Below are positions 1-19,500 of a stretch of DNA of 21,770 nt, one piece after another; the stretch's first letter is position 1, and each line of letters opens with the position of its first letter. The notes beneath the pieces are model-generated. The model was not told the DNA's origin and did not search any database. It worked only from the letters and a program-made list of their open reading frames with translations. Source of the stretch: a virus; IMG/VR virus record IMGVR_UViG_3300025483_001129, positions 1-21,770 of that record; one strand, written 5' to 3'. A program made the position numbers and the translations under genes.

Positions 1-2358
1 GACATTTGTGCCTGTAGCAACAGTTAGGGTAATACCATTTGTAATCTGTGCATCACCTGCAGCAGACGCACCACTAACACTACCAGTAGGACCAACATCA
101 TTCAGAGAAATGTGAGTACCGATCAGTGCTTCATTACCTACTGTGGTAGAAAGAACTGTCAATTGATACTCTTCATCATCAATAGCAATAAACTGTTCGT
201 TAGAACCTAATGTAGTAACAAAGGTGCCAGAGGGAACCGAGATAGCATCGTAAGTTCTTCTGACGATCATCGATTCATCACTGATCGACTTGATATACTT
301 CTTAGGCATATTCGAGAATAGATCGCTATTCTCCTGACCCAACAACTGTGCTCTATTACGAACCAAAACAGTATAGGTATCAGCAGCAACACTACCAGCA
401 CCTGCACCAACGTTTACAATTTGATTAGTAAAGTCGAAAATTGTTGTGCCTGAACCAGAAGTAGCAAAGTTTGTAGGATTTACTTTATCAACAACCAAAT
501 AGTTATCTTCATCAATATAGATTCTGTCACCAGCACGAAGGTCGCGAGCAAAGTTGGTATTGAAACCTGAGATTGTGCCAGCACCACTGTCATAGGTAAA
601 GGTATCACCTTCGAGTGATAGGAAGTCATCAAGAATTACATCTGCTGTACATTCAACCGCACTAGTGTCTTCATCTTTACAAACGAAAGAACGAATATCA
701 GAGAATTCATATGTATAGAAGAAGGAGATAGTACCAGCATCGATACCATCGATGAAGACAGTTTCACCTACTCTAAAGTTACCACGGAGACTGTAAGTTT
801 TTAGATGAGTTGCACCAGTTTGATCTTCAACAATTAGTGCTGTTGCACCAGAGGAACCACCGACAACTTGGGATCCTTGGAGAACATCTGTTGTTGCACC
901 GACTTGGATAACCGTAAGCATCTGAACGTCAAATACATTGACGTTGTAAACATCATCATCAGTTCCATAGGTAGTATCAGCACCAGAGCCTTCATGCTCC
1001 ATAGCAAGAGCACGGCAGAAACCAATAATTGATGCAGCTCCATCTGGAGCAACACCATTAGTAGTAATGGCATAGTCATATAGTTCCATGACCTGATATG
1101 CATCAGTGACGCTACCAGCACCAGTAAAGTTGGGGAATCCGTGTACTTTGTTTACCTGGAAGTTATTACCAGTTGCAAATGGAATGATTTGGTTTTCTAA
1201 TGCCTTAGTATCTCTAGGTTTGGGGAAGTCCACAAACTGAGGTACAAGAGTTTCAATTTGATTTCCACGAACGTAGTCAATACCAGGTGTAATCTCTGCA
1301 GTATACAGATTGTCAGATGAAATATTACCAGACTTTGTAGTCTCTCCTGCTTCATATACACCATTGATACCAGGTCTCAGATCATCATTCAAACAATCTC
1401 TGACTGTAATCTGATGATTCTTGACAGAATAATCACCATGGGTTTCATAGGTTCTCTTAGCGAGTGCCTTTTCTAGTTCATTATATGCAGTTCTTTGTAC
1501 AATCTTTTCAACTCTAGAGTTGTTGATTCTAAGAAGTTCAATAAAGTTCTTATCGGACTCGTCATCAATTAGTTTCTTGATAAGAGTCGTTGTGATTTTG
1601 AAACGATGTGCTCCAGGTGCAGAGTAGTTTGATGTACCTGCTGCGTTATCGTTCAGCGAGTCGTCATCCTCGGAGGTGATGATAGACTCAGTAACTTCTA
1701 AACCAACTCGATATGATGGATTACTACCATACTGATCGAGAAGAATGGACTGTGTAGGAACATCTACAAAGAAACCACGGATATAATAAACACCAGATTC
1801 AATATAAGCAGCAGAACCACGCTGTAAAGCATTCGATGGCAGCAACTGTGCAAATGGCGAACCAGTTTCAATCAAAGTTGTACCAAACGTAATGTCAACG
1901 TTGGTGATCAACTGTTCATTATTTTCAAACGTTTGAATAGTGCCCTCAGCACCACCAGACTCAACATACTTGATATACAACGTCAGATAACCATTATCTG
2001 AAGTAGTTGCATCGATACTGTATAGAACTTTTGCCTTTACCCCTGTAGTCAAACCTGTAATTAGTTTGCCATCAAGTTGACTTCTATACGATTCAATATC
2101 AGCACCTAGAAAACTTGCTTGCAATTGAATGCAATCAACTTTCGTATCATATCCCACTTGACCAGGGATAATCATCGCGCCATCTTTGAACAAATTCGTT
2201 CCCATGCTCTCGATCTGATTCTGCAGAATCGATTGCATTGACGTTAGTTCTCTTGCCTGAATCGGAAATCCAGGACGGAACAAGACTTTATAAAAGTTCT
2301 TGTCCTGATCAAAGTCGTCGTAATATGGTGTAACGTTGAGGTTAGTATTCTGGGGCAT
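1..2358 (-). CDS. DUF4815-type phage structural protein (3' end beyond window)
   Basis: The frame is open from ATG at 2358 to the left edge, giving 786 residues and no stop, so the C-terminus is missing. The N-terminus (MPQNTNLNVTPYYDDFD, then VLFRPGFPIQARELTSMQ at about residues 25-42) is the pattern I associate with DUF4815 proteins of T4-like marine phages, which are virion proteins of unsettled function, probably baseplate or tail fibre. The rest is Gly/Ser/Thr/Asp-rich, as expected for beta-structured tail proteins, with a GETVFIDG-type segment near residue 515. There is no signal peptide or membrane segment. It starts 5 bases after the gp8 stop and is probably co-transcribed with gp8. 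An AAAGGA ribosome-binding sequence lies unusually close to the ATG, but no better upstream start exists because the gp8 stop intervenes. Its place next to gp8 supports a baseplate or fibre-attachment role; the exact role is unknown. Confidence 0.85.
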   Translation of the reverse strand, partial: MPQNTNLNVTPYYDDFDQDKNFYKVLFRPGFPIQARELTSMQSILQNQIESMGTNLFKDGAMIIPGQVGYDTKVDCIQLQASFLGADIESYRSQLDGKLITGLTTGVKAKVLYSIDATTSDNGYLTLYIKYVESGGAEGTIQTFENNEQLITNVDITFGTTLIETGSPFAQLLPSNALQRGSAAYIESGVYYIRGFFVDVPTQSILLDQYGSNPSYRVGLEVTESIITSEDDDSLNDNAAGTSNYSAPGAHRFKITTTLIKKLIDDESDKNFIELLRINNSRVEKIVQRTAYNELEKALAKRTYETHGDYSVKNHQITVRDCLNDDLRPGINGVYEAGETTKSGNISSDNLYTAEITPGIDYVRGNQIETLVPQFVDFPKPRDTKALENQIIPFATGNNFQVNKVHGFPNFTGAGSVTDAYQVMELYDYAITTNGVAPDGAASIIGFCRALAMEHEGSGADTTYGTDDDVYNVNVFDVQMLTVIQVGATTDVLQGSQVVGGSSGATALIVEDQTGATHLKTYSLRGNFRVGETVFIDGIDAGTISFFYTYEFSDIRSFVCKDEDTSAVECTADVILDDFLSLEGDTFTYDSGAGTISGFNTNFARDLRAGDRIYIDEDNYLVVDKVNPTNFATSGSGTTIFDFTNQIVNVGAGAGSVAADTYTVLVRNRAQLLGQENSDLFSNMPKKYIKSISDESMIVRRTYDAISVPSGTFVTTLGSNEQFIAIDDEEYQLTVLSTTVGNEALIGTHISLNDVGPTGSVSGASAAGDAQITNGITLTVATGTNV

Positions 2359-2363
2359 TTCCT

Positions 2364-3896
2364 TTAGAACTCGATTACGATTTTGATATCTTCGATTTGA
2401 TCGCTTGCACGACTAATAGACCTTCTATTATCTAGGTAAATAATTTCACCCGTGTTGAAAGCAACCTCTGGTTTTGCATATGCAGAAGTAAATCTCATGC
2501 CCAAATCATACTCAGTGTTATTGATAACACGGGAGGAAGTATTTGGAACCGTTGGGAAATTGATATCAGGTTCTGCAGAAGAACCCGAGGATGCACCCGA
2601 GATAGCGTTAGAACCGTCAAACTCATTCAATGAACCTGTGATTTCGGGGAAGATTCCGTCAACACGATTCTGATAATATTTCAGAACTTTTGTAGTAGGG
2701 TTCCAAGAGATAACTCTTGCTCTAGACGTAACTGACTGTCCACCAACTGTACGAGTTTGGGTAATAATCTCGTCAGGCAAGAAGTTGCCTTGGAAAGTAG
2801 GAGCGAAAATTACTGCTTTAGTAACAGAAGAAGTCAAATCTGACTGCAATTCGCTAGTACCAAACTTACGTGGGTTGACAACTAGACCGACACGACGATA
2901 GTCGTTATCGACAGGGAAGTCACCTGCACCTTCATCATAAGACAGTTTTGCGTTGATCATGACACGGTATGCACCGAGTTCAATGATAGAGTCAAAACCG
3001 TGTCCTCCTGGAGGAGGCATACTCACATCAATTTGTGCTGCAGCACCAGTACCGATACCAGAGATAGTGTCAACACTGATCTTACCGAAAGAGTATCCAG
3101 TACCACCAGATGTTACAGTTGCAGAAATGATTTTACCACCGTCAACAACAATAGAAACACGACCACCAACACCGTCACCTGCAATAGCAACGTTGTCATA
3201 AGTGCCGTTATTATAACCAGAACCTGATGATGTAATAACAACAGTATCAACTTCACCAGAAACTGCGTTTGTCTTCACCGAATTATTGGTGAAGACTGGC
3301 ATGTACTCATTGGAGAAGAATTTCAGAACCTGTGCCACTGGGATGGTGTACATGTACTTCCAACGATAACCATCAGCAGTAGTGATAATAGAAGTAGAGG
3401 TGCCAGTGGGCTCAATTGTCGAAGGTTTACCATTAGGGTCTGAAGGAGACGTTCCATTGTAGATACACTTATAAACTTGATAGTTTGTGTTTACAACATA
3501 AAAGTCTGCATCATACAGTTTGGTAGCACCAGATGCTGCTGTATTTGTTGGGGAATAGTCATGGCGATACATATCGTATGTAAAACCAAGACCACCAGTT
3601 GTTTGTTCTGGAGGAGTCCAGTCAATTCTACGGATAACCTGAATGGTATCTGATGCAAGAACTCTTTTCATAGAGATCATGTCATCATAACTGTCCGAAA
3701 ACTGATCGAATGCATCGATTGCCTGAGGTGGCGAGTTTTCGTTGTCCCACGCCTGCGGTCTTCCAATGAAGACATAAAGGCGATCCCTGTCTTCACCCGC
3801 CGCAGCATCAGACTGGGTGGCATCAGGACCTTCCAGTGATTTGATGAACTTCTTCGCAGAGAAGATTCTAAATTGATCTGTAAGTAGAGCTGACAT
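2364..3896 (-). CDS. 8: Baseplate wedge subunit, T4 gp8 family
   Basis: The 510-residue protein matches T4 gp8 at both ends. The N-terminal part has an FRIFSAKKF segment, VFIGRPQAWD (compare FGRSEPW in T4), a VIRRIDW segment (compare VIPRRDW) and DGYRWKYMYTIP with NEYMPV. The C-terminus, GEIIYLDNRR followed by DQIEDIKIVIEF, parallels the T4 gp8 end. T4 gp8 (334 residues) forms a dimer in the wedge and contacts gp6, gp7 and gp10. The extra length comes from a Gly-rich insert at about residues 210-295 carrying two GSGY-type beta repeats, and another at about 360-440. A TATAAATA box lies 26 bases upstream of the ATG, and a GAGGA ribosome-binding sequence lies 12 bases before it. The family assignment is firm, based on remembered T4 sequence; the role of the inserts is unknown. 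Confidence 0.92.
   Translation of the reverse strand: MSALLTDQFRIFSAKKFIKSLEGPDATQSDAAAGEDRDRLYVFIGRPQAWDNENSPPQAIDAFDQFSDSYDDMISMKRVLASDTIQVIRRIDWTPPEQTTGGLGFTYDMYRHDYSPTNTAASGATKLYDADFYVVNTNYQVYKCIYNGTSPSDPNGKPSTIEPTGTSTSIITTADGYRWKYMYTIPVAQVLKFFSNEYMPVFTNNSVKTNAVSGEVDTVVITSSGSGYNNGTYDNVAIAGDGVGGRVSIVVDGGKIISATVTSGGTGYSFGKISVDTISGIGTGAAAQIDVSMPPPGGHGFDSIIELGAYRVMINAKLSYDEGAGDFPVDNDYRRVGLVVNPRKFGTSELQSDLTSSVTKAVIFAPTFQGNFLPDEIITQTRTVGGQSVTSRARVISWNPTTKVLKYYQNRVDGIFPEITGSLNEFDGSNAISGASSGSSAEPDINFPTVPNTSSRVINNTEYDLGMRFTSAYAKPEVAFNTGEIIYLDNRRSISRASDQIEDIKIVIEF
3021..3263 (-). repeat. Two GSGY-type beta repeats inserted in gp8
   Basis: Residues about 212-292 hold two copies of a unit of the form V..V.ITSSGSGY...(N)..I.GDG.GG, then a short linker, then I..ATVTSGGTGY. 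T4 gp8 has no such Gly-rich insert at this point. The same unit recurs in the 3934-7488 gene and in the giant gene. It is seen directly in the translation; its function is unknown. Confidence 0.7.
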
Positions 3897-3933: not shown

Positions 3934-6900
3934 TTATGAGAACTCGTTTCTGATTAGATTGTCATATCCAATATCCTTGATTCTCCAACGCGCACCATTA
4001 TTTCCAACAATCTCTTCACCGCCAAGGATTGCTTCAAGCACTGCACCAGTGCCTGTAGTATCACTTGCATCATTTGTTACTGTGATAGTTGGGTGTAAAT
4101 TGAATGTACCATCAACACTTTGCACATAACCATAACCTTCTGTAGTAATATTTACACTATCAATTTGGTCACCAGATGCAGTCATAGTTGCAGTGGCAAC
4201 TGCATCTATACCAGTGGTGCTGGTTTCAATTGCAATTGTTGGTGTTGCAGTATAATTCACACCAGGATTGACAACCTTCATATCAATGATACTACCGCTC
4301 TTGGAGAATGTATAGAAACTACCATTTGTACCAAGAGCAACATTACTAGTATTGTATGGTGTAATGTTACGAACCACCAATTCTCTAGTTGCATTATCCC
4401 AAGATGTTACCGTAGCAATAATTCCAGATTGCTGTCCTGTAATCAATTCATCTGGGAAGAAGTTGGCATTGTTGGTATATCTCACGTCTAAGATAAGAGT
4501 CAATGTTGAGTTATGTTCAACACCATCACCAAGAGCACCTGCCAAATCGACTCGTGCAATCTTGACAGGGTTACTAGTATCATTTAGACCATCACCAACT
4601 TGGAACAAGGTAGTGTTTTGACCACCCACTGTTTCTTCAATACCATACAGAGAATCAAACAGACCACCATCTAAACTGATCTGGTTATCAAACTGAGTTC
4701 CAGTATTGTTTAGATCGACAATTCCATCATCATCAGTATCTACATATGCAGTATTTAGTAAGACTGTTGGAGGTGTAATCTTTACATTATAAACTGCATC
4801 ACCTTCAAACAGAACGATCGAAGAACCAATCTCGGTTTCTGTTGTATGTGGCAGTGAACTAGCAGGAGACGCATCAGAGAATCCAGCATCAAATGCAACG
4901 GTAAGTTCTTCAGATGAAGGAATACCAGCATCAATAAATGCCAGATCATCAACTTCAAATTTTACAAATAGTTCTCTAGATTCAGGTCTCCAGTCATAAA
5001 CTTTAGCAATTTTATTACTAGAGTTATCGATACGTCTGATAACTTTATCACCCACTTTGAAATTGTAGGTTGAAATGCCCTCAGAATTATTCTGTCCTGT
5101 ATCTAGGATAACACGCTGATCATATCTAAAGTTTATACCACGAATACAACCAGTAAATCTACCCCTTTCTCTACCAGTGTATCTAACAATTTCATTTCCA
5201 AGAATGAATGTACCAGATCCATCAAATGCACTAGTATTGTCAACAAAGATATTTGTATCTGTTGCCGTTGCAGAAGATGCTAATCCGCAGAAATTATAAT
5301 CAACTGAATTATTTGATTGTCTATTTCTTACTTTTCTCTTTAGGTTTACTAGTTTTGTAAAGATAATATTTGGTGGACTGGTATAACCAACACCAGGATC
5401 AAGGACATCAATACCAACAACATTACCTTGAGAGATTCTTGCTCGTGCTTTAGCACCAATACCACCGCCACCATCAATCAAAATATAAGGTTCTTCTTGG
5501 TAGAACTGACCACCATTATCAACACTGATAGAAGTTAGTTTACCTGTAGTATCAACATATGCAACACCAGTTGCATTTGCTCCACCACCACCTTGGAAGA
5601 ATAGAGACGGAGGTGTTGCATATTCTCTACCTTCGGAAATCAGGGACAAACCAGTAACAGTTTGAGTAACTGCATTACCTACAGCACCAGTGCCTTCACC
5701 ACCAAGAATTTCAACACGAGCAGCACCAAAGTATCCATCACCATTGGACTTCATACTAACATACTGTAGTGATCCAGATGGATAAATTACATTGCCACCA
5801 GTATCAAGTTGGTCTTCTTCGTAAATGATTACTTCTGCATCTGCACCCCTAGGTGACTCCAAGTTGATACTAGGAAGAACTGCACCTGGTTTATAATCTT
5901 TACCAAAGTATTTTGGACCAATAGCATATGGATATACAGGATCTCCATTACTATCTTGTGTCAGGAAGTATGCATAGGTTCCATTTGGATATTCTGTAGT
6001 AACGCAATATCTACCATTGAAATCATCTAGATCTGCATTAGTGCTGTCATAGATATAATCTTGTACAAATGTACCTGCTAGATATCCAGTACATACAAGA
6101 CGTTCTGCCATATTTGCATGGTTATAGCAGAAATAATATAACGTATCTGGTGCTTCTACAGGAACTGTAATTTCTACTCTTCTTAGAGTAGCACCATTGA
6201 ATTGTGCATTATAGGTTTCGTAGTCTACTTCAGCGTTCTCAATGTAATAAACTACACCTTGAGACCAAACTGACGATTTATTGAACTTTACTTGATCTGC
6301 TGTATGCCAACCTTGAGCATCACTATTTCCAAATGCTGAAAATAGAATGCCATGACCAGTATTAGTAGAATCGTCTTGATTGAAAACATATGTACTACCA
6401 CGCTCAAGATTCAGGAACTGTTTCTCAGCATTAGTGAATCCACCACCAGTAATATAATATCGATTACCACCAGGAGTAATTTGACCAGCAGCTACAGTTA
6501 TAGTAAATGTAGTTGTAGATGGAGTAATAACATCTGGTCTAGTTGCAGATACTTCCACACCCGTTCTGAGACGGAATCCACTACGCATTCTGCTAGTAGC
6601 ACCTGGAATCAGAGAATTTGTATATCCCCAAGGTCCGTAAATTGGATATCCATCATAGGAATATCCCAAAATTTTAGAATGTCCATTTGAGTGCCTAGAC
6701 TTATCACCAGAGTAATCAGTATCACTATAATATGGAGCAATAGAAAATGCACCACCCGAAGATGCAAAAGCATCAATTAGTCTAGAACTGGTGTAATAGT
6801 ATCTTCCAAGTTCTGTTGGTTCTCTTGAAGTAGTACCATCATATTGATCCATACCAAGAATGGTAGGAGTCTTGACTACATCATAGTTGAAATTTGGGTA

Positions 6901-7488
6901 TGTGGGAATACCTGGTGGAAGATCGAAAAAATCAGGAGTATGGAGTTCAGTTCCATTTGCCATGATACCCAATGGAGTATCTTCTTGATTTGATCTTACT
7001 TCAGTGCTAGGAACTTCCTTGCCACCTCGGTAAACAAATGTATGATCGTAATCCTGTGCAAAGACTTGTCCTACTGCATTATATGGAGATGGATCTGGTA
7101 ACCCATTAGTAATTATTCGGAGTCTATCATACTCCACAAATATACTAGATGTGACTGAAGTATTACTAGATACAAAAATATCTTTTGCATCAAATGTAGA
7201 AATGACTGTAACCGAGTCTTGACGAGGTGTGATTTCTACCCTAAGAGGATCATATCCTTTACCTGAGTTTAGAACTCGAACGTAAACAATCCTTCCAGAG
7301 TCTTCATCAATAAAAGGATATAGCAGTGCTTCAACTTGTGGCGTTCCACAGTTATCAATAGTAAGTCTTGGAGGATCTAGAGGATCATATCCACTACCCC
7401 CATTTAGCACCTCAATAGATAAGATGCCAAAATCGCTATTGAAGTTTGGTTTGATTACCGCACCCGATCCAGGAACTGTCCTTGCCAT
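3934..7488 (-). CDS. YHYH-family tail protein with inserted cupredoxin domain
   Basis: This is an 1184-residue multidomain structural protein. Residues 19-88 hold two GSGY-type beta repeats. A YHYH-family domain begins at about 121 (LRIITNGLPDP) and runs to about 310, including SNGHSKILGYSYDGYPIYGP. It resumes at about 470-535 (FNGRYC...EYPNGTYAYF...VYPY). Between these halves, about 326-467, sits a cupredoxin-like domain with His379, Cys454, His457 and Met460, a full type-1 copper ligand set with amicyanin-like C-x2-H-x2-M spacing. Residues about 573-712 and the C-terminus carry more beta repeats. The signature YHYH is absent; the aligned position reads RYYYTSS. The start at 7488 follows an AAGG ribosome-binding sequence, 9 bases after the gp10-like gene, so the two are probably co-transcribed. 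No membrane segment or signal peptide is seen. A baseplate or fibre location is inferred from context. Copper binding is predicted only from ligands. Confidence 0.85.
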   Translation of the reverse strand: MARTVPGSGAVIKPNFNSDFGILSIEVLNGGSGYDPLDPPRLTIDNCGTPQVEALLYPFIDEDSGRIVYVRVLNSGKGYDPLRVEITPRQDSVTVISTFDAKDIFVSSNTSVTSSIFVEYDRLRIITNGLPDPSPYNAVGQVFAQDYDHTFVYRGGKEVPSTEVRSNQEDTPLGIMANGTELHTPDFFDLPPGIPTYPNFNYDVVKTPTILGMDQYDGTTSREPTELGRYYYTSSRLIDAFASSGGAFSIAPYYSDTDYSGDKSRHSNGHSKILGYSYDGYPIYGPWGYTNSLIPGATSRMRSGFRLRTGVEVSATRPDVITPSTTTFTITVAAGQITPGGNRYYITGGGFTNAEKQFLNLERGSTYVFNQDDSTNTGHGILFSAFGNSDAQGWHTADQVKFNKSSVWSQGVVYYIENAEVDYETYNAQFNGATLRRVEITVPVEAPDTLYYFCYNHANMAERLVCTGYLAGTFVQDYIYDSTNADLDDFNGRYCVTTEYPNGTYAYFLTQDSNGDPVYPYAIGPKYFGKDYKPGAVLPSINLESPRGADAEVIIYEEDQLDTGGNVIYPSGSLQYVSMKSNGDGYFGAARVEILGGEGTGAVGNAVTQTVTGLSLISEGREYATPPSLFFQGGGGANATGVAYVDTTGKLTSISVDNGGQFYQEEPYILIDGGGGIGAKARARISQGNVVGIDVLDPGVGYTSPPNIIFTKLVNLKRKVRNRQSNNSVDYNFCGLASSATATDTNIFVDNTSAFDGSGTFILGNEIVRYTGRERGRFTGCIRGINFRYDQRVILDTGQNNSEGISTYNFKVGDKVIRRIDNSSNKIAKVYDWRPESRELFVKFEVDDLAFIDAGIPSSEELTVAFDAGFSDASPASSLPHTTETEIGSSIVLFEGDAVYNVKITPPTVLLNTAYVDTDDDGIVDLNNTGTQFDNQISLDGGLFDSLYGIEETVGGQNTTLFQVGDGLNDTSNPVKIARVDLAGALGDGVEHNSTLTLILDVRYTNNANFFPDELITGQQSGIIATVTSWDNATRELVVRNITPYNTSNVALGTNGSFYTFSKSGSIIDMKVVNPGVNYTATPTIAIETSTTGIDAVATATMTASGDQIDSVNITTEGYGYVQSVDGTFNLHPTITVTNDASDTTGTGAVLEAILGGEEIVGNNGARWRIKDIGYDNLIRNEFS
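4013..4290 (-). repeat. C-terminal beta repeats of the YHYH/cupredoxin protein
   Basis: Two units begin at IIDMKVVNPGVNY and IDSVNITTEGYGY, each followed by a P-x-I-x-I/V strand and a Gly/Ala-rich stretch ending near AVLEAILGG. They are of the same type as the repeats in gp8 and the giant protein. Confidence 0.6.
5353..5772 (-). repeat. Central GSGY-type beta repeats
   Basis: Residues about 573-712 contain four units: SMKSNGDGY, SLISEGREYATPP, SVDNGGQFY and DVLDPGVGYTSPP. Each is followed by a short strand and a GGGG-A-type loop. They are seen in the translation and probably form a beta-helix-like or stacked beta arm; the fold is inferred. Confidence 0.65.
5884..7128 (-). other. Split YHYH domain (paralogue of the one at 9669-10457)
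   Basis: The halves at residues about 121-310 and 470-535 match the neighbouring YHYH protein in order: LRIITNGLPDP, HSNGHSKILGYSYDGYPIYGP, NGRYC, EYPNGTYAYF and VYPY. At DNA level 5977-6031 and 9722-9776 are still clearly similar. The HYH histidines of the family name are replaced by Tyr in this copy. Confidence 0.8.
6088..6513 (-). other. Cupredoxin-like domain nested in the YHYH domain
   Basis: Residues about 326-467 show the cupredoxin pattern: LERGSTYVFNQDDS, then GHGILFS with the first His ligand (His379), an extended loop, and APDTLYYFCYNHANM with Cys454, His457 and Met460. The C-x2-H-x2-M spacing is that of amicyanin-type blue copper proteins. The loop between ligand strands is longer than in the domain at 7501-7731. 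The ligands are visible; bound copper is a prediction. Confidence 0.75.
7225..7434 (-). repeat. N-terminal GSGY-type beta repeats of the YHYH/cupredoxin protein
   Basis: Two units occur, SIEVLNGGSGYDPLDPPRLT and VRVLNSGKGYDPLRVEI, at residues about 23-86. They are the same type as the later repeats in this protein and in its neighbours. Confidence 0.65.
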
Positions 7489-7497
7489 ATTACCTTA

Positions 7498-8739
7498 TTA
7501 TTTGATTTGCAGAACACCTGCCATGTTCGTGTGGATGGTACACTGATAGTACAATGTATTGGGTGCGCTATGAGGAACCGTAAAGACCTGCGTACCTGTT
7601 TGACTACCAGACACGCCTAGAGTCCACTGGGATCCAGAAAGACCAGTAGTTGACTGGAATCTAAATGGATGGTTTGTACCAGCATTGTTGACAAAGATAT
7701 AAGTAAATCCTCTATACAGATGCAATGTCGGGTCATCTGTTTGTGCCTGACCAGGACCTTCAATCAAATATGAGTTGTTGTTCAAACCAACTGAAATAAT
7801 ATACCAAAGCGTTGGTGATGGTTGATTGACCCAAGCATCAGTTGCACCATTACCTTGAGGATCATATGTAATAGAATCACCTCTAGCAATAGCGGTGAAA
7901 TTGACATCAGTAAGTTCGGCAAACTCAAAACTACCGTCTACATTGACAGTAAGTGTATCGCCAGAAACTGCAGTAGTACAATTAGTACCGCCAGCAATAG
8001 TTAGTGTGTCAGCAGAACTATCTGCTGTTGTGCTTCCAGAATCACCACCAATAGTTTGGAAAATATTTTGAGTTGCAGCACCTGCAGCATCATCACCTGG
8101 AACGAACTTATTATTGACTGCATCCCATTTGAGAACCTGGTTTGCTGTCGGAGCAGTAGTTGTAATATCAACGTCAACTAATTTATCAATACTACTGTAA
8201 TTGGTAACAATGTCAGCAGTAATATCGCCAAGACCACCACCTGCTCCAATATGCACTTTAGGGTTTTGATCGCCATTGACTGTGAAGAAATACCCTTTAG
8301 TGCTTGCTAATGTTGGTGCAGCACCAACTGTTGCATATTCGTTCTTATATGCAATAGATGAAGATAACTGTAGTTGTCCTGTGGATCCATCAAACGTGGA
8401 AGTTTGACCACCATAAGTAACTTGCACGTCTCCAGTTCCATCTGGAGCTAGATTGATATTGTTACCGCCAGTGCTAACAATATTGTAGTTGTTAGTGTTT
8501 AGCGTTGAAGTTAGATTTGAAAAATCTTGTGGAATAAAATCTGTACCATTCCAACGAAGAACTTGTCCAGTTTGAGCACCTGCTGTATTGATCAGCAGAT
8601 TGCTGCCATTTCCCATGGCACCATAGACTTCTAGAAAGTTATCGTTTACTTTATCAGCACCAGCCCGCAGAGAGTCACCAGTACCATCATTGGGGTTCGT
8701 ACCAATATTTACGTTCTGTTTTCCTGTTCCGTAGGGCAT
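7498..8739 (-). CDS. gp10-type baseplate protein with C-terminal cupredoxin
   Basis: The 413-residue protein opens with QNVNIGTNPNDGTGDSLRAG and then KVNDNFLEVYGAMGNG. This closely matches the start of T4 gp10 (QNINIGNVVDDGTGDYLRKG, then KINENFDELYYELGDG), the module that docks gp10 onto the wedge, mainly via gp7. The middle (about 50-300) is Gly/Thr/Asn-rich with two Q-V-L-[RK]-W-[ND] segments, typical of trimeric fibre-like shafts. The C-terminus (about 337-413) is a cupredoxin-like domain with His357, Cys400, His403 and Met406. The rest of T4 gp10 is missing, so this is a gp10-module protein rather than a full gp10. A TATAAATA box lies 17 bases before the ATG, implying a very short leader with only a weak GAG ribosome-binding sequence. 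A baseplate-anchored tail pin or fibre is the likely role. Confidence 0.85.
   Translation of the reverse strand: MPYGTGKQNVNIGTNPNDGTGDSLRAGADKVNDNFLEVYGAMGNGSNLLINTAGAQTGQVLRWNGTDFIPQDFSNLTSTLNTNNYNIVSTGGNNINLAPDGTGDVQVTYGGQTSTFDGSTGQLQLSSSIAYKNEYATVGAAPTLASTKGYFFTVNGDQNPKVHIGAGGGLGDITADIVTNYSSIDKLVDVDITTTAPTANQVLKWDAVNNKFVPGDDAAGAATQNIFQTIGGDSGSTTADSSADTLTIAGGTNCTTAVSGDTLTVNVDGSFEFAELTDVNFTAIARGDSITYDPQGNGATDAWVNQPSPTLWYIISVGLNNNSYLIEGPGQAQTDDPTLHLYRGFTYIFVNNAGTNHPFRFQSTTGLSGSQWTLGVSGSQTGTQVFTVPHSAPNTLYYQCTIHTNMAGVLQIK
7501..7731 (-). other. C-terminal amicyanin-like cupredoxin domain
   Basis: Residues about 337-413 read LYRGFTYIFVNNAG, NHPFRF (His357), then APNTLYYQCTIHTNMAG with Cys400, His403 and Met406. 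All four type-1 copper ligands are present with C-x2-H-x2-M spacing. The domain ends exactly at the C-terminus, so it would form the exposed tip if the N-terminus docks to the wedge. Confidence 0.75.
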
Positions 8740-8771: not shown

Positions 8772-10493
8772 TCACGAAAGAGTATTTCCATTGCTTTGGA
8801 AATACTCAGTAATTGCAGCAAGGAGACCAACATTGGTATTATGTCCTGCATTACTTGTCAATTGAACAACATGATTGTTCAGGTATGAATATTTGGTTAC
8901 GGTTGAATAATTGAAGTATTGTTGTCCCGAAGACAAAATTCCACCTTCATATCCCTGACTTGTAGCCATCAGGAATGAACTATGTTTGGCAGGAAGGAAG
9001 ATTGCAGAACCTGGTCCTGGAGAGGAAGATCCTGAGTATGGAACTGTATTATCGTTTGTATTATTGATTTGTAAATATTTTCTAGGTCTATACGGAGATG
9101 CTTCAGTATCGTATCCCGCATTTGCATAGTCTGTATGAATATATTCGGGATCACTTGGTTTATAAAATTTACCCTCTCTATATTGTTGTTGATGTATTTG
9201 TGAAATAATACAACATACAATGTCAATTGATGGTTCATCAAGTTCAATATATGCCCTAGCTGCTAGAGCACCACCATTAGAAGATCCTAGGATTCTAATT
9301 CTATTCAATGAAACATTAGCATATGTCTTGATACTCGCAATCAAGTCGGTAAGCATTTCCATATCTGGTGCTAAATGCTCATTCACCACATTCCATTGAT
9401 TTTGAAATCCAGTTGGTGCAATCAAGATGTGGTTTGGCAATACATCAGCAAATGCATCGATAGTTGCAGCACCGTTACCACCTGCTCCATGAAGAAGAAT
9501 ACAAACTGGTCTTACAGTTCCTTCAGGACCTGCAGGGACTCTAATATTTACAGGGTATGTAAATGTCCCTTCGCTCCATGCTTTCGTAATTGTTAGATCC
9601 GTATCATTTGCAATGAAAGTTGGAGTTGCGATAGGACCGCCTGCAGATCTCTGCTCTTTAGTGCTGTTCCCAAAAATATATGGATATACTGGACGATTCT
9701 GCGTATCCAGTGTCATAAAATATGCATAAGTTCCATCAGGATATTCTGGCGTAGCACAGTATCTACCATTATGAATATCGAGAGAACCTAAATTTTCAAC
9801 AAACTCGTAGTCTTGAATATATGTTCCTGCAGGAATATCAGCGTAGAGAGAACCTCTATTTGCAACTGGTGAAGGAAAAGCACGATAAGAACTCTTCATT
9901 CTCACTACAGGAGTCAATCTATTACCTGCATTTTCATATCCAAAAGGACCATACACAGGATATCCATCGTAACAGAAACCAACAATCTTAGAATGACCGT
10001 CAGGATGCCTGAAGTAATCACCATTGTACTCACTACTACTAAAGTATGAGTTGGATGCGATTACTTTAGAACCCCAGCAGTTTGCTAGAAAAGATCCACT
10101 ATGGTAGTGATACTCACCATTCTGCTCTGGATGACCTCCACATGCGTCTACACCATACGATTGCTCATTATATACCGCATTGTACGCAAATCCTGCAGGA
10201 GGTGTTGTAGACGATCCTGGAAGGGGACCAGGAGCAGCAGAAGCATTGAAAAGGGGTACTCCATTTAGAGCAATACCAATATCACCCAAAGTAGTATTTT
10301 GAGGGTTAGAAGTATTTGTTCCTGCTCTCAATGTAAACTGTACATCGACAGATCTAATCTGTACGGTATTTGGATTGCCAGGAAACAATCCTGACCCCAA
10401 AGGAGTGCCATACAGTGCAGGATCAGGTCGTCCATCAGTGACGACCCTTAGCGTTGTACCATCTAGAGTAGCGGTTGTTGCAGATATCGCCAT
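8772..10493 (-). CDS. YHYH domain fused to alpha/beta-hydrolase (putative esterase/depolymerase)
   Basis: The 573-residue protein has an N-terminal YHYH domain (about 13-275): LRVVTDGRPDP, CGGHPEQNGEYHYHSG with His129 and His131, GHSKIVGFCYDGYPVYGP, and EYPDGTYAYF. From about 310 a complete alpha/beta-hydrolase follows. It has HGAGG (335-339, oxyanion region), G-S-S-N-G at 403-407 with nucleophile Ser405, Asp481 in INNTNDNTVPY, and His551 in NAGHNT. The HGxGG and GxSxG layout resembles the polyhydroxybutyrate depolymerase/LpqC/feruloyl-esterase group, so an ester substrate on the host surface or exopolymer is a reasonable inference. The actual substrate is unknown. There is no signal peptide, as expected for a virion component. 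The ATG lies 24 bases after the giant gene, with GAGGA 12 bases upstream. The last codons form a strong hairpin. Confidence 0.88.
   Translation of the reverse strand: MAISATTATLDGTTLRVVTDGRPDPALYGTPLGSGLFPGNPNTVQIRSVDVQFTLRAGTNTSNPQNTTLGDIGIALNGVPLFNASAAPGPLPGSSTTPPAGFAYNAVYNEQSYGVDACGGHPEQNGEYHYHSGSFLANCWGSKVIASNSYFSSSEYNGDYFRHPDGHSKIVGFCYDGYPVYGPFGYENAGNRLTPVVRMKSSYRAFPSPVANRGSLYADIPAGTYIQDYEFVENLGSLDIHNGRYCATPEYPDGTYAYFMTLDTQNRPVYPYIFGNSTKEQRSAGGPIATPTFIANDTDLTITKAWSEGTFTYPVNIRVPAGPEGTVRPVCILLHGAGGNGAATIDAFADVLPNHILIAPTGFQNQWNVVNEHLAPDMEMLTDLIASIKTYANVSLNRIRILGSSNGGALAARAYIELDEPSIDIVCCIISQIHQQQYREGKFYKPSDPEYIHTDYANAGYDTEASPYRPRKYLQINNTNDNTVPYSGSSSPGPGSAIFLPAKHSSFLMATSQGYEGGILSSGQQYFNYSTVTKYSYLNNHVVQLTSNAGHNTNVGLLAAITEYFQSNGNTLS
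8775..9566 (-). other. Alpha/beta-hydrolase domain with complete Ser-Asp-His triad
   Basis: The order of motifs is canonical: strand VCILLHGAGGNG, strand HILIAPTGFQNQW, nucleophile elbow ILGSSNGGALAARAY, strand-Asp LQINNTNDNTVP, and strand-His VVQLTSNAGHN. All triad residues (Ser405, Asp481, His551) are intact, suggesting an active enzyme. The length of about 264 residues fits a single-domain esterase. Confidence 0.82.
8780..8807 (-). terminator. Perfect 11-bp hairpin at the end of the hydrolase gene
   Basis: The arms 8780-8790 and 8797-8807 are perfect inverted repeats with a 6-base loop. On the minus strand the stem ends in CTC followed by only TTT, so it is a weak candidate for a factor-independent terminator. 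It could also protect mRNA 3' ends. It lies inside the last codons (Glu-Tyr-Phe...Thr-Leu) and directly before the late promoter at 8757. Confidence 0.55.
9669..10457 (-). other. Intact YHYH domain
   Basis: Residues about 13-275 contain the signature EYHYH, a Cys/His-rich lead-in (DACGGHPEQNG), DGHSKIVGFCYDGYPVYG and NGRYCATPEYPDGTYAYF. The conserved His and Cys residues suggest metal binding or a structural core; the family function is unknown. It is a paralogue of the split domain at 5884-7128. Confidence 0.85.
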
Positions 10494-10514: not shown

Positions 10515-10521
10515 TATTTAG
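10515..10521 (-). promoter_or_regulatory. Possible variant late promoter before the YHYH-hydrolase gene
   Basis: The minus strand reads ACCTAAATATAACGAGG across the stop codon of the giant gene. CTAAATA resembles the late box and keeps the ACCTA start of the two good promoters, but it lacks the exact TATAAATA. The position, 21 bases before the ATG, is suitable. It could be chance, in which case the hydrolase is read through from the giant gene. Confidence 0.4.
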
Positions 10522-13500
10522 GTCGTACTAGAAGACCAGATACCAGTTGTGGTGTATCCCGAAAGGTTGTATGCAGTAGATGGGGGAACAGTCGGGAGTT
10601 CCTCAATTGCCGTAGCACCAGAAGTTACTCCAGGAATACCGCCACCAGAGGTTGTACCGCCCGTGGTAGTGGTTGTATTATCTTGGACACCCAATTGCTC
10701 AGGTGTTTCCGTAACAGCACCGCTACCAACTCCACCAGCACCAAACGTATCAATAATTGGAGTTGGTGTACCATCTTCAGGATATTGTAGCAGATCTGGT
10801 GTAGTCCAATCATCAGGAACACTAGATTCTGCGACAACCACAGGATACTTATAACCAGAACCTCTGTTTGTAAGTTCCACACGTTCAACTCCAACCAATG
10901 CTTTGATGTTTGCATCGTAACCGCTGATTGAGTCAACACGAACTAATGGGCGTGTAGTAAATCCAGATCCGCCAGAGGTTACTCTTGCTTCTCTGATTGT
11001 ACCTTTAGTGACCGCAGCAGTTGCTGAAGCGTCCTTACCAAAGACTGATCCGAGGTAATCGAAGGTGATGAGAGAGTTAGACGATTCGATAACTGCGACA
11101 TCTCGATCGCTAGTCTCGCCCTGAATGTCAATTGCATCGCCAGGTTCAATTGGTGGGATAACATTCTCGGCATCAACGTCTGCTTCAGAACCCACGTACG
11201 AGAACGCCACGAATGTGGATCCTACGCGAGGAACTTCTGCGAAGATGATTCTAGAACCAACCAAGTTGAATGCAACACCAGGTTCCTGAATAACACCATT
11301 GAGTGATACGATAATGTTATTCTCTGGTCGTACAACTGCAGATTGGACACCATCAGTCAGTGTCAGTGAGTAGAATGTACCGCTGCGACGTAAGTTGAAA
11401 GACTGACGCAAAGAGTCAAACTCGAACGAAATATCATCCAGTTGTCTGAGTTTACCGAAGTATACACCCACGAACGATGCACCAACTTCAGGAGCTTCGT
11501 TGAACTGGATGTTATCTGAGAATGCTGTATAAGCATCTCCAGAACCAGGAGGTTGAAGAATACCATTGATGAAGATCATCATGTGACCTTCGGGATCTGG
11601 GAAGTATGGAGTACCGTTCGCGGTAGTGAGTTTGTAGGTAGTCTGAGTACCATCGAAACCACGGAATGAACGCTTGACTCTTGCTTTCAGATCAATAACA
11701 GTTTGAACTTGTGCTCTATAACCTGCGCGTGCCTTGAGGGTTTCACGAGCAGTCCATGATCCACGGATATCTTCAATAAAGACTCTCTTAGAGGTGCCGA
11801 CAGTCTTGATATCAACAACCTTAGCAGCAGCATTACCTGTTGATACGACTGAAGTTTGAATGACTGCGTAACCAACAGGGAACTCACCATCAATAGCACC
11901 ATAGTAAGCAATGCCTTCACCATTGTTGAAAGTTCCGAGATATGGTTGTGCGTAGATAAAGTTATTACCCAGATCAACCTCAGTGATAATTGCGCGTCTG
12001 GAAGGATCTTTTGTACCACCCGTGACGCCATACAGAATACCACCTTGCTCAAAGACATTCAGATTACCCTGAACCTGTACGCCATAACGTACATAACCAT
12101 CAGAGACGATTCTTTCACCAACGTTGAGTTCGAGACCTGCGAACTGGTTGATGTCAAGGTACTGGCGAGAGTTTTCTGGATAAACAACACTGGTAGTCTC
12201 GAAAGGTCCAAGAAGACTTTCTGTGTCTACTGTTAGTTTACCACCAGTGTTACCAAGGACTGCTGCGTCAGACTTGATGAAGGTTGTTGTGGTCGCAGTT
12301 TCGCCACTAGTGTAACCCTTGAATGGTACGCCAGTAACAAAGTCACCTTTCAAACTAATAACATGAAGTCTCTTCTCGATAGCATCTACAGTTGCGAAAG
12401 CACCTTCATTGGATTGCAGAATATCTGCAGTCGCCCAAGCACCACCCGTGACATCAATGTCCAGATAGTTGAAGTTCTCATCCGCCCAGAAGGCGTAAAT
12501 AGTTCCTGTGACTGCAAGATCACCTTGCTTGTTACAGGTATCGTTTAGGACGAAAGGACCATCAGTGATTCCACTTACGGTCATTCTCAAGTATTCCTTG
12601 ACAACATAACCTTCATTGACATTGTATCCTCTAATTTCAGAGTTCGAGTCGCTAAGAAGACCGTAGATAAACGAAGACTGTTGAATTTCGCCACCGAATG
12701 GGATAGGAACAGTTCTAGTACCAAACGTCTTAGGCGTAAGAATAATATTATTTTTAGTTTGTAATCCAGTATAGAAGGTACTATCGACCAATTGCGACTC
12801 ATATAATCCGACCAGATAATTGACTACTGCCTGAGCATTTGCTGTAGTATACTCTGCTCCAAGAGTTGCGTCAGTATAAGACAGGAACGTTCCAATTGGT
12901 GAAGGTGATACCAACGTCTGTGCAAGAGCAGCATTCATGTACTGCTTCATTTCATTTAGAATATAAGTTCTAATATTCAGAGCATTGTCAGGGAAGAATG
13001 ATGTACCACTTTGTGCGGCATAAACATCCAAGTTACCTTGATTGAGTTTTGCACCCCACATGTAGACGCCAGATGTACCATCGCCTGCAGTATTTGTAGA
13101 ACCGTTAGATGTACCATAAGAAGAAACATTCAGAGAAGAAACACCGAATGGAACATCGATTGTGATGAATGCTCTATACCAACCATCACCTTGTGGGAAG
13201 ACGCCTGTAGCAACAGGGGTAATACCAGATTGGTTGACCGAGAAAGAGTTACCGTTAGTCAGATCAATCGTGAAGAACACATAGTTGGTTGCATTCCAAT
13301 CAATACGAAGTCTTGCTCTGTCATATCCACCTTCCTTGAAGAAGATTGAGTATGTATATCTCTGAGTGGAGACGTTTACACCAGAGTCATATGATTCTGT
13401 GTCACTATCAAAGGAGACGTTATCACGGTCAAATGTGGTATATGCAGTTAGAACATAACTTCTACTCAGTGCCTTGTCATTAGCATTATTTGCAGGAATT

Positions 13501-16500
13501 ACAAGATCTGCTGTTGTAGTTGCATCAGGTGCTGTAGCGGAATTGATAGTGACAGTGATATCACTAGAACCATTACTTGACCATCCACCACCAGATACAT
13601 CCTCAGTTTGAAGAGCAGGAATCAGGTTTACACCTGCAACCAGATCAGTTGTAATTTGCAATGCTCTCAGACTTGCAAGTGTTTGAGTATTGTTGATTTC
13701 TGTATTAGCAGGAAGAGTAGAGATATCAGTAATTACGATATCGTGAATGACATCATCTGCAACTTGGTTGATGAAATCTTCATACTCTGTACCCCAGATA
13801 CCTGCACCCCACTGGTTAGTGACATCTTGTTCAATCTCAGTTTGATAGTAGTTCTTATTGAACAGCATGATTTGAGCAGCACTTCTGGATGGATCACCAC
13901 CAGGTGCAAGGGTATTGATCATCGAAGTGAACAAGTTGTCAATAGTAGATTGAACATTTGCACAATCTGATGCACTATAATTACCACCTGCGCCAGAGGA
14001 ATCATGTGTAATTGTAGTATCACTAAATGCAACTCTGTTAGTAAACTGAGCAACGTAATAGTCACCACCAAGTGCAATACTATTTGCAGTCTGCAGTAAG
14101 TTTGCTACTGCTTTCTTAGCAAGGAATTGTACTTGCTCAAATGCATATAATGTACTGGTTAGTTGATCTTCTACATGCAGAATCTGCAGATTAGAGTCTA
14201 GGTAGGATTCAACTGCTCGTAAAGAACTATTGTTACCACCCGTCAAAAGGTCTGCAATTACACCTTCTAAGATCAGACCAGCGTCACGGATACACTTGTT
14301 TCTGCCATCAACACTACCACCTGGATATTGGAATGACTGATACTGAGCACCGTTAGAAAGTTCGTAGAAGAATTCTTCTTCCATCAAACTAATTGCTTCT
14401 TCTGTGATGTACTGTTTGTTGAACTTGATAAGATCTGCAGCATCCTTATAACGATCACTCACAGGAGATATGATCGTGTTCATTGTAGTAATCAAGTTGT
14501 CAATAGCAGTCTTGACGTTTGCACAGTTGCCAGCGTCGTTAGTAATGCCAAGGTCAGATACGATTACCGAGTCAGTATATATTGCTGCTGCTTCAAGATC
14601 GCCAGTAATAGCAAGTTTTGCCATCGCACCAAGTTGCTCATGAGCAAACAATGATGCATAAAGTTGTAAGCGAACATGCTGGATCTCATCGTTCTGTCCA
14701 AGATAGAACTTAGCAGCCTCTACAGAATATCTGTTACCGCCAAACTTCAAGTCTTTGATGATTGCTTGCAGGATAAGTGCAAGGTCAGTTTTACAGCGAG
14801 TTGTTCCAGCGCCACTACCATCAGTGTTTCTAGGCATCTCTAATGCCAATGATGGATAGCGGTCGAGCATCAAACCAGCAGTTTCATCGATAATTGCTTC
14901 TGAATTGATTTGAATCAGATCTGCAGCATCAATAAATCTGTACTGAGCATCAGCATAGATTTCATTGACATAGAACTTATCATTAGTAGCATCGTTGAAT
15001 CTGACCGTAAGTGGATCGCCACGATATGCATAAACTTCACCGCCTGCCCATGGGAACAGAGGAGATGTTTTCGTTACGGTAGCAAGATGATCAACTGCTG
15101 TTGCATTAGCATCAATTGCAAGTTCTGCAGCAGAGACATATGCTTGATCCAGAGTGGTTGTAATGATTGCGATCAAGTTGTCCATTGCAGTAGCAACATC
15201 AGCACAATATGGTGATGAAGGATCAACAGTAATAGTTGAATCAATGGTTTGAGTCAGACCATGGTCACCTTGAATGGTAACAGTGGTACTTCTCATAACT
15301 TCTTTGGCAATAGTATTTGCCATGTCGATTGCCCAAACAGTCTCTGCTTCTTCACCCACAATGTGATTGAGAGTAATTGGAGTTACGCTACGGTTGACAT
15401 ATTGTGCAGCAGCGTCCCAAATATAAGCGTTACCACCGTTTCTAACATCTTTCAGTAGAGCACCTACAATCAGTTTAGTGTCAAGGGTACACTGTTGATG
15501 ATTAGGATGCGTTCTAGTTACTTGAGTAATTGATGATGGATATGTTGCAGCATCATTACCGTCAGGATCCATGATGGTATCAGTGACAATTGCCATCAAG
15601 TTATCAATAGCGGTTTCTATGTCAGTACAACCACCAAATACACCAGTGATAGTGGTGTCAGTAGTTTGCGTCAGACCATGCGAACCTTGAATTGTGACGG
15701 CAGTGTTGTTGATAACCTGCTTTGCAACATCTCTTGCAGAATTGAATACGCTTACTGAATCTGCTTCATTGCCAGTCAGGTGCTGAATTACAGTACCGTT
15801 TGTATACAGATCTGCAGCATCCCAAGTTTTGGAGTTGAATCCATACTTCAAGTTATAAGCAATATTGCGAATAGCATCCTTTACATCATCGATGCAGTCT
15901 TGAGCAGTAGTACCACCTGGAGGGGTGGGTCCAATTCTTTCATAACCTTCATTAGCGATAAAATCAAGGTTTGCAAGAATGAGATCATGTGAATCTGCAC
16001 CACGATCACTATCAACTGGAGCAGGGACATGCAAGCGTGGGAAGTTGCGATCCATGCGATAAACTGCTTCAGCAGCAATCAGATCGATATTTGCCTCAAC
16101 TTGATTAGCGGCATCGTAATATCTAAATGCAATGGCAGAGTTTACAAACTCGTCGCCAGCAGTCCAAGTTGGAACACCAGACCAATCGTAGGTAGTGGTA
16201 GTGTCATACTCTTGCTCCATATGAAGAAGAAGTTTGATACCAGCAACACCCTGATAGATACCTGCCAAAGGAGTGAAGTTTGCACTGTATGCCTGATCCG
16301 TACGGATCATGACTTCATCAATGTATCCAGTGAAGTAGTTGCTTGTCAAAGCACCACCAACTGCAACACCCTTAGCGGGGTAGGAGTTTGCATCTGTACC
16401 ATTACCACGGTTGACGCCATCTAGGAACAGAGCACCGTTACCGCTAGTTCTGCTATATGCAATATGATACCAAGAACCAGCAGAAAGAACTGCAGTACCA

Positions 16501-19500
16501 GAGTTTGCAACCACAGCACCATTTACTTCGACAGTAATAATACCGTTGTTCAGATACATTCTAACAGCGACATCAGGATCAGATGCACGCATGTCAAGGA
16601 AAGTTGCTTCTCCAGTTACAGCAGCTGCTTCTGGATAGATGTAACATTCAATTGTAAATGCGTTAGTTCCGAAAGCAAATTCACTGCTAGATGGAATTGT
16701 CAGATTATCACCAACAGTGCCATCAACATAAAGAGATGCTCCACCAAATTTCTTTTCTGTAGTAGATAGAGCAGCGTCACCATTGAAAGTAGCAGTATGG
16801 ATTTCTCCACCAGCACTATCACCACGACTGGTCTTACCAAGATAGATGATACTTTGTCCAGAATTATAACCTAAAACTTCCGCTTTAGCATTCTCACTTC
16901 TGATAATTTGACCTGCACTGAAGAAACCATCACCTTGGAAGTTCCTGATTGCAAGTTGTCTTACTTCTGCAGTTTCATTTGCAAACAGTTCACCAGAGTT
17001 ATTACCATAATTGAAGGTATAGTTGCGAACAAACTCAGTTTCTTGGATTGTACCAGACTCATTACTATACACAATCGTGTAATTGTTTACACTTTCCCCA
17101 GTTGGGAAGTTAGAATCAAATGAGACTAGGTTTGTTTCAAAGTCATTGATCTGAATTTGAGAATCTGCAATATTATCGAGAACAACGTTTGGATACGTTG
17201 CGTTAGAGATTCTGTTGAACAGAAGACCAAAGAATGTAGAACCTTCAGAAATAATAACTCTTGGAATTGCTTCACCACTTACATCATCCGTATAATTGAA
17301 TGCTCTAGTGATAAATGTGACAACGCCAGACTTGAGACCAACGATAATATTATACTGCTCAATTTCAAGCAGACCTGGAGTAGACTGATAAGTACCAGTC
17401 GTCTTGGACACTGCCAGTTCTTGAGTAACCTCAACGTCGGTACTATAAACAGGACCATTTTCCTGCTGCTGTGCAGGTGCAGTACCAGACTGACCACGTT
17501 GCACTTCAATAGTTAGCGACTCTGAAGTTGGGTTTTGTACTGCAGTGACAGAGATGATCTCAGCACCAAACTGATATTGACTACCAACTTCAAACGTTCC
17601 TGCAGGAGGTGGACTAGGAACAGTGCTGGAAGAACCATAAGATACCACTTCAAAAGTAGTAGTACCAGTACCAATAGTATATCTTAGTTTTGCAATAGGA
17701 GATTGCTGACCAACCGAGAGGTTGATTTCTTCAATTTTTGCTTTTTCGCCCTGGAAGTTGACAATCTCTTCACCAAACTGATAAAGATAATCATTAGAGT
17801 TTGTAGCGTCCTTGATAGTTGTTACAGAATCAAGAATACCAAGGAATCCTGTAGAAGATACAGACATGGTTTCACCAAGGTCATATCCATCAACAGCAGC
17901 AGTAGATTCTTGCAAACCACCAGTTGTGGTCAAAGGTGTACCCGCCTGACCATTGAAGATGACATCAATATCATTACCAGATGTCCTGATAACAGTTCCT
18001 CTCCAATTAGAGGTCAAACCAAAGATTGTTTGTCCTAAAGTTGGGAAGATGCCAGATACGCTACTGAAGGAGAATTTGTAAACACTGACGAAATCAATTT
18101 CAACATTTGCATATTGAACCATTGCATTAGGTTGTGGTGGTTCAGAGAAGACAATGCTATTACCCTGAATGTTGAATGCATCGCCTGGGTTTTGAACAAC
18201 ACCGTTGAGAACAACCATCAACTGGTTAGATGCAGCAGATACCGCTTCCTGGTTTACACTAATTGGGAACGAGATACGCTCACCATCAAACAGTTCAGAA
18301 ATATCATCCAAACGCTGAACAATAGAAGTTAGAATGTTCTCCGAAGAAGTCAATCTTCTCTGTCGGAACAGAACTTCACTATTATTATACTGAGTGTAAA
18401 TTGGTTCAACTAGAGCAAAGTTCTGAATATTAGGAACAATTGCAGCATCAGATAGGTTTACAGACTTAGTTAGTTCAAAGTCTGTAATACGATTCTGGAT
18501 AAGTGCTTTATCAGTAAGATTCAATTCACCAAAGAGTTTGAATCCTGCAGGGTGGCAGTTAGTAGTAACAAGTTCTCTCCAGTTCTCAATTGAGACAGAA
18601 GACTGAACAACGTATGAGAAAGACTGATAGAAGTAAGAATCTTGTACTTTCTGAATAATTTCGGATAGTTTACCAACATCATCGATAAACTGACCAGTAG
18701 TTTTAGTGATCGAGTCAATATCAAGAACACCACGAGCAATTGCTAAGTCAGCAATGACACCAGAAGACTTGGAGATCTTACCAGTGACTTTCTCACCGAG
18801 TTCAAAGACTCCTGTGTAATCAACCAGTTTGAGCAGTCTGGGACCGACCAACCAACCATCGTTCTCGGAAACATAACCGATTGCAGTTGGGGTATTTACA
18901 TTTTCGCCCTGATAGATTTCTTCACCTGCAAGGAACTCGCCAGTACCCACGTTAGCAGTTGCAGCACCACCAAAGGATGCAGTAAGAAGAATTTGACGAC
19001 CAGCACCAGCGTTCACGAAGGAAATTGAGTCACCCAGTTCTGCATTAGTCTCGGTAATAGCAATTTTGAGTTGATCCTCTTCTAGTGAGTTTGCAGTACC
19101 AGAAATTGCATAATAAGTCGTAGTAGAGTTTAGTGTACCGACTGCACCAGCAGCGATTGGGAATGCACCATCAACTCCACCATCAGCTTCGGTTTGAAGT
19201 TGTACTTCAGATCCGCTGACAATACCATGAGGATACGAGAACTGCAGCAGACCCAAGTCAAGGTTGACAACATAATTGAAAGATGACTTCAAAGAAACAT
19301 CTGGTTCGGAAGAATATCCAGCACCAGGATCTTTGACAATAATCTTATCAATACGACCGTTCTTGATTGATGCCTCAGCAATAGCACCAGATCCACCACC
19401 ACCTTCAATAACTACAGTAGGTGGTTGAGAATATCCAGAACCAGGATCGGTGACAGTGATGTCACGCAAGATACTAGTATTGATCAACTGAGCGTTGATT

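Follow-up and report, generated by a model that had tools for sequence, protein, structure and literature searches.

A predicted cupredoxin nested in the YHYH domain of a T4-like cyanophage baseplate wedge protein

Cupredoxins such as amicyanin, plastocyanin, rusticyanin and the N-terminal domain of Hyphomicrobium NirK are beta-sandwich proteins in which a His precedes a strand, and in amicyanin a Cys-X2-His-X2-Met motif lies at the last loop. The phage-encoded domain described here resembles them in each of these features, including the amicyanin ligand spacing (CX2HX2M), but differs from known cupredoxins in that it is nested within another domain of a baseplate protein, that its copper site is predicted, and that its middle region is longer, with 75 residues from His379 to Cys454 as against 43 in the copy carried by the adjacent protein P0002. 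The interrupted domain is of the YHYH type (PF14240), which has been proposed to be a tail-associated Zn-dependent hydrolase (PMC7824862). Both halves in the host protein, P0001, score above the Pfam cut-off and the RHxxGHSK motif is retained, whereas the interruption by a cupredoxin and the loss of the His residues of the GGHPE and YHYH motifs set P0001 apart. The closest described relatives of the whole gene are the members of PHROG 708/T4-GC 399 (SShM2_097 of S-ShM2, PSSM4_082 of P-SSM4, gp103 of syn9), which are the same gene in the operon order gp9-399-gp8; the lineage analysed here has one nested cupredoxin, at a site termed B, whereas in syn9, Syn30 and P-SSM4 there are two, the ligands being present at A and absent at B. 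Among cellular proteins, secreted lipoproteins of marine gammaproteobacteria (L201), Poseidoniales (L225) and SAR86 (L235) carry a domain of the same CxxHxxM family, but there it is free-standing, C-terminal and un-nested, preceded in L201 and L225 by a cadherin-like or collagen stalk.

T4-like cyanophages rank with the most abundant viruses of the ocean, and knowledge of their baseplates and of how they contact receptors is poor. In the open-licence literature no paper was found on cupredoxins in cyanophage baseplates or nested in YHYH domains, nor any relevant paper joining cupredoxins or blue copper with cyanophages or tail fibres; the constituent parts are known, and their combination here is apparently undescribed. 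The reading that we favour, with somewhat better than even confidence, is that a baseplate wedge protein bears a type-1 copper cupredoxin in a loop of its YHYH domain, forming a copper-pinned surface knob that would serve adhesion or assembly and not electron transfer.

Gene order and the interrupted YHYH domain

The window, that is, the whole 21,770-base virus fragment that was analysed, has all of its large open reading frames on the minus strand. These encode a giant gp7-like protein, the YHYH-hydrolase P0003, the gp9/10-like connector P0002, P0001, gp8 and a further large product, and four of them are central to the comparison:

2364 to 3896, minus strand: gp8 baseplate wedge, the conserved neighbour downstream of P0001 (PF09215, E 3e-18; PHROG 438)
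3934 to 7488, minus strand: P0001, T4-GC 399-like baseplate wedge protein of 1184 residues, host of the nested domain (PHROG 708, E 0)
7498 to 8739, minus strand: P0002, gp9/gp10-like baseplate wedge tail fibre connector (PHROG 677, E 6e-167)
8772 to 10493, minus strand: P0003, uninterrupted YHYH domain plus alpha/beta-hydrolase (PF14240, E 7.7e-40, one stretch)

The gene order of the window is the same in S-ShM2, where the homologue of P0001 is the T4-LIKE GC 399 protein (95% identity over the YHYH-cupredoxin region), and the core order connector-399-gp8 recurs in Syn30, syn9, P-SSM4, ACG-2014d and ACG-2014b. Sequence family and operon position both place P0001 with the T4-like baseplate wedge proteins of PHROG 708, and its annotation (PHROG 708, RefSeq) as a baseplate wedge protein is more precise than the "tail protein" of an earlier, sequence-only reading of this DNA. 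No relative with a solved structure was found. The match of P0002 to the Pfam model T4_gp9_10_N falls just below the cut-off (E 3.5e-5), as does that of P0003 to Abhydrolase_2 fall below its own (E 0.0036). The hydrolase-like domain of P0003 contains GSSNGG, a nucleophile-elbow-like motif, and its S-ShM2 homologue is annotated as the gp7 baseplate wedge initiator, an apparent misannotation.

The YHYH domain of P0001 is divided as follows:

6535 to 7131, minus strand: N-terminal part of the YHYH domain, residues 120-318 (our own YHYH-N profile, E 2e-52)
6784 to 6807, minus strand: degenerate form of the namesake motif, GRYYYTSS at residues 228-235, where stand-alone domains have GEYHYHSG (by alignment)
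6673 to 6696, minus strand: retained motif RHSNGHSK, residues 265-272 (GHSK conserved without exception in the 48 rows of alignment A3)
6088 to 6513, minus strand: nested cupredoxin domain, residues 326-467, at insertion site B (by AlphaFold2, PDB matches and absence from insert-free YHYH domains)
5899 to 6084, minus strand: C-terminal part of the YHYH domain, residues 469-530 (containing the PF14240 stretch 5947-6084)

P0001 matches PF14240 at 76.2 bits, against a gathering cut-off of 25, in two stretches that are each above cut-off (window 6535-7008, minus strand, profile 11-137; and 5947-6084, profile 141-185), so that the domain is split between profile positions 137 and 141. In the insert-free comparison copy, that of P0003, PF14240 is matched in one piece (profile 8-184). 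The sequence-only reading had held that two YHYH halves flank the insert beside an intact neighbouring copy, and in this, as in its residue numbering of the four ligands and in the span that it gave for the insert (window 6513-6088, which is residues 326-467), it was exact. Alignment to the insert-free domains of P0003, L014-16 and S-BM3 leaves a gap that corresponds to the insert alone, and comparison indicates that the YHYH domain without insert is the common form and the insert derived, because intact domains occur in all of these proteins as well.

Stand-alone YHYH domains keep both GGHPE and GEYHYHSG, where P0001 has DGTTS in place of the former as well as the altered namesake motif. His is present at the namesake columns in 5/5 stand-alone domains and in none of the T4-GC 399 rows checked, which keep RHxxGHSK while GGHPE and YHYH have lost their His residues. 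The namesake His residues and the proposed Zn site of PF14240 are thus lacking from P0001, which by these alignments is classed as a degenerate scaffold of YHYH type and not as a working YHYH enzyme. Because these His residues are lost, and if the Zn-hydrolase view of the domain is taken (PMC7824862), the metal site of the P0001 domain is probably dead and the domain inactive, serving as a scaffold.

Fold of the nested domain and its predicted copper ligands

AlphaFold2 predicts the insert alone at a mean pLDDT of 96.1 and a pTM of 0.90; for residues 111-545 of P0001 the pLDDT is 74, most of the insert exceeding 80, and structural matches of this longer model are confined to model residues 210-358, which are the insert. 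The best VIA-align match of the insert (model 1..142) is NirK 2dv6 (Z 9.4, rmsd 2.5 over 100 residues), followed by rusticyanin (Z 7.2-7.9), auracyanin (6.9), laccase and NirK domains, and all of the 50 matches listed are domains of the cupredoxin/multicopper-oxidase superfamily. Rusticyanin and AcoP are the top Foldseek matches, with plastocyanin also among the fold matches; the Foldseek TM-scores to PDB entries are modest (0.4-0.6), and BFVD relatives reach E values down to 4e-11. At the sequence level the blue-copper similarity is detectable via family profiles only and not from single sequences. The family profile finds NirK/multicopper oxidases at 1.3e-5 and then plastocyanin, amicyanin and azurin, and some family members weakly match the NCBIfam models for amicyanin (2.9e-4) and halocyanin (3.4e-3). 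None of the Pfam cupredoxin models gives a match, and the insert as a single-sequence query against Pfam and PDB returned antibody and DUF noise, nothing meaningful. The diversity of a first family alignment, A2, made it unsuitable for scanning DNA. The absence of a cupredoxin fold, the outcome that would have counted against the sequence-only reading of a cupredoxin nested in YHYH, was not obtained in prediction, and with high confidence the model depicts the insert as a complete, independently folding cupredoxin nested in a YHYH loop.

The predicted ligands are these, with their occurrence in intact and degenerate copies at site B:

6352 to 6354, minus strand: His379, predicted first copper ligand (15/15 intact, 0/28 degenerate)
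6127 to 6129, minus strand: Cys454, predicted copper ligand (15/15 intact, 0/28 degenerate)
6118 to 6120, minus strand: His457, predicted copper ligand (15/15 intact, 0/28 degenerate)
6109 to 6111, minus strand: Met460, predicted axial ligand (13/15 intact, Lys in the other 2; 2/28 degenerate)

In the insert model the first His stands just before strand 56-59, the Cys ends strand 124-129, and the second His and the Met lie in the loop preceding the last strand, 138-141. The four residues therefore occupy canonical type-1 copper positions in terms of strand and sequence position. Cupredoxins often have an Asn immediately after the first His; here it is absent, the pair being His-Gly in P0001 and His-Pro or His-Ala elsewhere, and therefore the colour and potential of the predicted site may be atypical. 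This missing Asn, together with the Lys at the Met position in 2 of the 15 site-B rows that have the Cys and both His, would fit a metal-dependent receptor-binding site whose occupant is a different metal (zinc, or solely Cu(I)) or a small ligand. We regard this as quite improbable, as the ligands are spaced as in type-1 copper sites and the family profiles select blue-copper proteins, not zinc proteins. A sub-lineage with CHNHINK at site B (L054-L058, L060, L061) keeps the Cys and both His but has Lys for the axial Met, and so represents a naturally occurring variant of the axial ligand.

Across 48 aligned copies from phages, bacteria and archaea, H, C, H and M are the only four invariant columns; as the rows had been pre-filtered on CxxHxxM, the first His alone is an unfiltered invariant. 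Without such a filter, CxxHxxM is present in 42 of the 43 cellular-genome loci. In the degenerate site-B copies the ligand columns are more variable (entropy 1.57-2.89) than the domain median (0.99). The dN/dS of the insert against S-ShM2 is about 0.17, which indicates purifying selection on the insert at the sequence level. This selection, the independent fold and the conservation among phage records show that the insert is no chance feature. A value above 1 for the C-terminal YHYH half in the same comparison was discarded, there being 1 synonymous and 6 nonsynonymous changes only.

Distribution among cyanophages and cellular relatives

Inserts related to the P0001 cupredoxin are present in 297 GenBank phage records, every one a cyanophage, and by these matches many T4-like cyanophages share the nested cupredoxin as a conserved trait. 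The nesting had at first been read as unusual; it proves instead to be a family trait with repeated nested and free-standing copies, and an unusual single event is ruled out by nested copies at two loops and in the gp7-like proteins L011-13, with two YHYH domains each. Within YHYH domains there are two nesting sites: site A precedes RHxxGHSK, and site B is that of P0001. The 147 T4-GC 399 proteins, with 93 distinct tails among them, show only two states: 102/147 have a ligand-bearing cupredoxin at site A and a ligand-less one at B, and 45/147 have site B alone, with ligands. Every one of the 147 has exactly one ligand-bearing cupredoxin, none having both and none neither, when C-x2-H-x2-M/K is taken as ligand-bearing at site B. 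In the Syn30/syn9 lineage (L018, L020, L021, L022, L028) the YHYH domain has gained about 250 residues before GHSK, made up of a further stretch of about 100 residues and the site-A cupredoxin.

Many independent switches between A and B had been considered as a test of this one-site pattern; the tree shows only one, a single change sufficing (SH-aLRT 99), and the pattern is on this phylogeny a conserved rule from a single event, not repeated convergence. In the cupredoxin tree the site-B copies group together (92), the degenerate B copies form one clade (99) and the A copies another (100). The simplest history suggested by these groupings is that the site-B insertion is ancestral, and that one lineage acquired a different cupredoxin at site A and lost the ligands at B.

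Ig-like decorations are common on phage tails, and the nested cupredoxin might likewise be a purely structural beta-sandwich spacer whose inherited site is metal-free in the virion. The site-B copies of the Syn30/syn9 lineage, which keep their position and fold-level similarity with all four ligands lost, are what such a spacer would look like. However, the second nested cupredoxin of the same lineage keeps H-C-H-M, 0 of 147 proteins are without a ligand-bearing copy, and all 15 intact site-B copies have H, C and H; we consider the spacer a possible explanation, if a doubtful one.

A scan of GTDB genomes with the cupredoxin family yielded 43 loci, mostly in marine MAGs and single cells, and some of these are clearly cellular lipoproteins with a cadherin-like or collagen-repeat stalk and a C-terminal cupredoxin (L201, L225). 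The lipoprotein loci L201:4206-5327, L225:3999-5321 and L235:4848-5348 belong to marine bacteria or archaea, and the domain in them is outside Pfam coverage. Marine surface-protein cupredoxins match the family at E 1e-18 to 1e-35 and plastocyanin only weakly, at about 0.005, and capture from a host plastocyanin is therefore ruled out. The same disparity bears on the proposal that the domain functions as a redox protein, swapping electrons in the manner of plastocyanin with surface or photosynthetic components of the host at infection. The type-1 ligand set, the photosynthetic hosts and the fold matches to plastocyanin and rusticyanin speak for it, but with the sequence affinity lying elsewhere and no partner or oxidase encoded nearby in the window it appears very improbable. 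In the tree, the phage copies are spread over several lineages among the cellular ones, with low support, and it is likely that the cupredoxin has been exchanged between marine surface proteins and phages. One cupredoxin family is common to phages and to marine bacterial and archaeal surface proteins.

Proposed role of the nested cupredoxin and further copies

In the copper-pinned knob that we favour, the CX2HX2M site of amicyanin length would bind copper as a type-1 site. Free copper in the cytoplasm is extremely low, and a preformed cupredoxin site is able to take up copper outside the cell. Because phage proteins fold in this nearly copper-free compartment and the preformed site can load outside it, copper would probably be taken up only after lysis. 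The metal would then pin a rigid knob projecting from the baseplate toward the fibres or the host surface, with the YHYH domain, which has lost its own metal ligands, as its scaffold or arm. Relatives at the C-terminus of stalked lipoproteins and in fibre and connector proteins of cyanophages are counted in favour of a surface role; electron transfer is not proposed because no redox partner is evident. Since each protein copy keeps one complete ligand set, virions may carry copper, and a conserved predicted site, one per protein even when moved, predicts virion copper and an effect of chelation on infectivity. A stronger version is that T4-like cyanophage virions are copper metalloprotein particles, with one obligatory type-1 site per wedge subunit kept through relocation between YHYH loops and loaded only outside the copper-poor cytoplasm, copper uptake completing or arming the baseplate after lysis and infectivity being tied to seawater copper; this we think unlikely, if worth stating.

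The connector encoded next to P0001 carries a free-standing relative of the insert:

7501 to 7809, minus strand: C-terminal cupredoxin of P0002, residues 311-413, with H357, C400, H403 and M406 (same HMM family, E 3e-32)

It is represented by 49 non-redundant copies, with CxxHxxM in all. The YHYH domain is a recurrent acceptor of nested domains. Gp7-like proteins of 3300 residues (L011 424-10347, L012 352-10269, L013 421-10251) contain 6 or 7 cupredoxin-like copies each; they have two YHYH domains per protein, both hosting nested copies, one pair of which is in tandem. The second insertion point in these proteins is displaced by about 15 residues, lying after and not before the QDY strand. Within the window itself, the giant reading frame at 10518-21770 includes a weak, ligand-less cupredoxin-like stretch at 20196-20504, minus strand (family HMM, E 5.6e-6).
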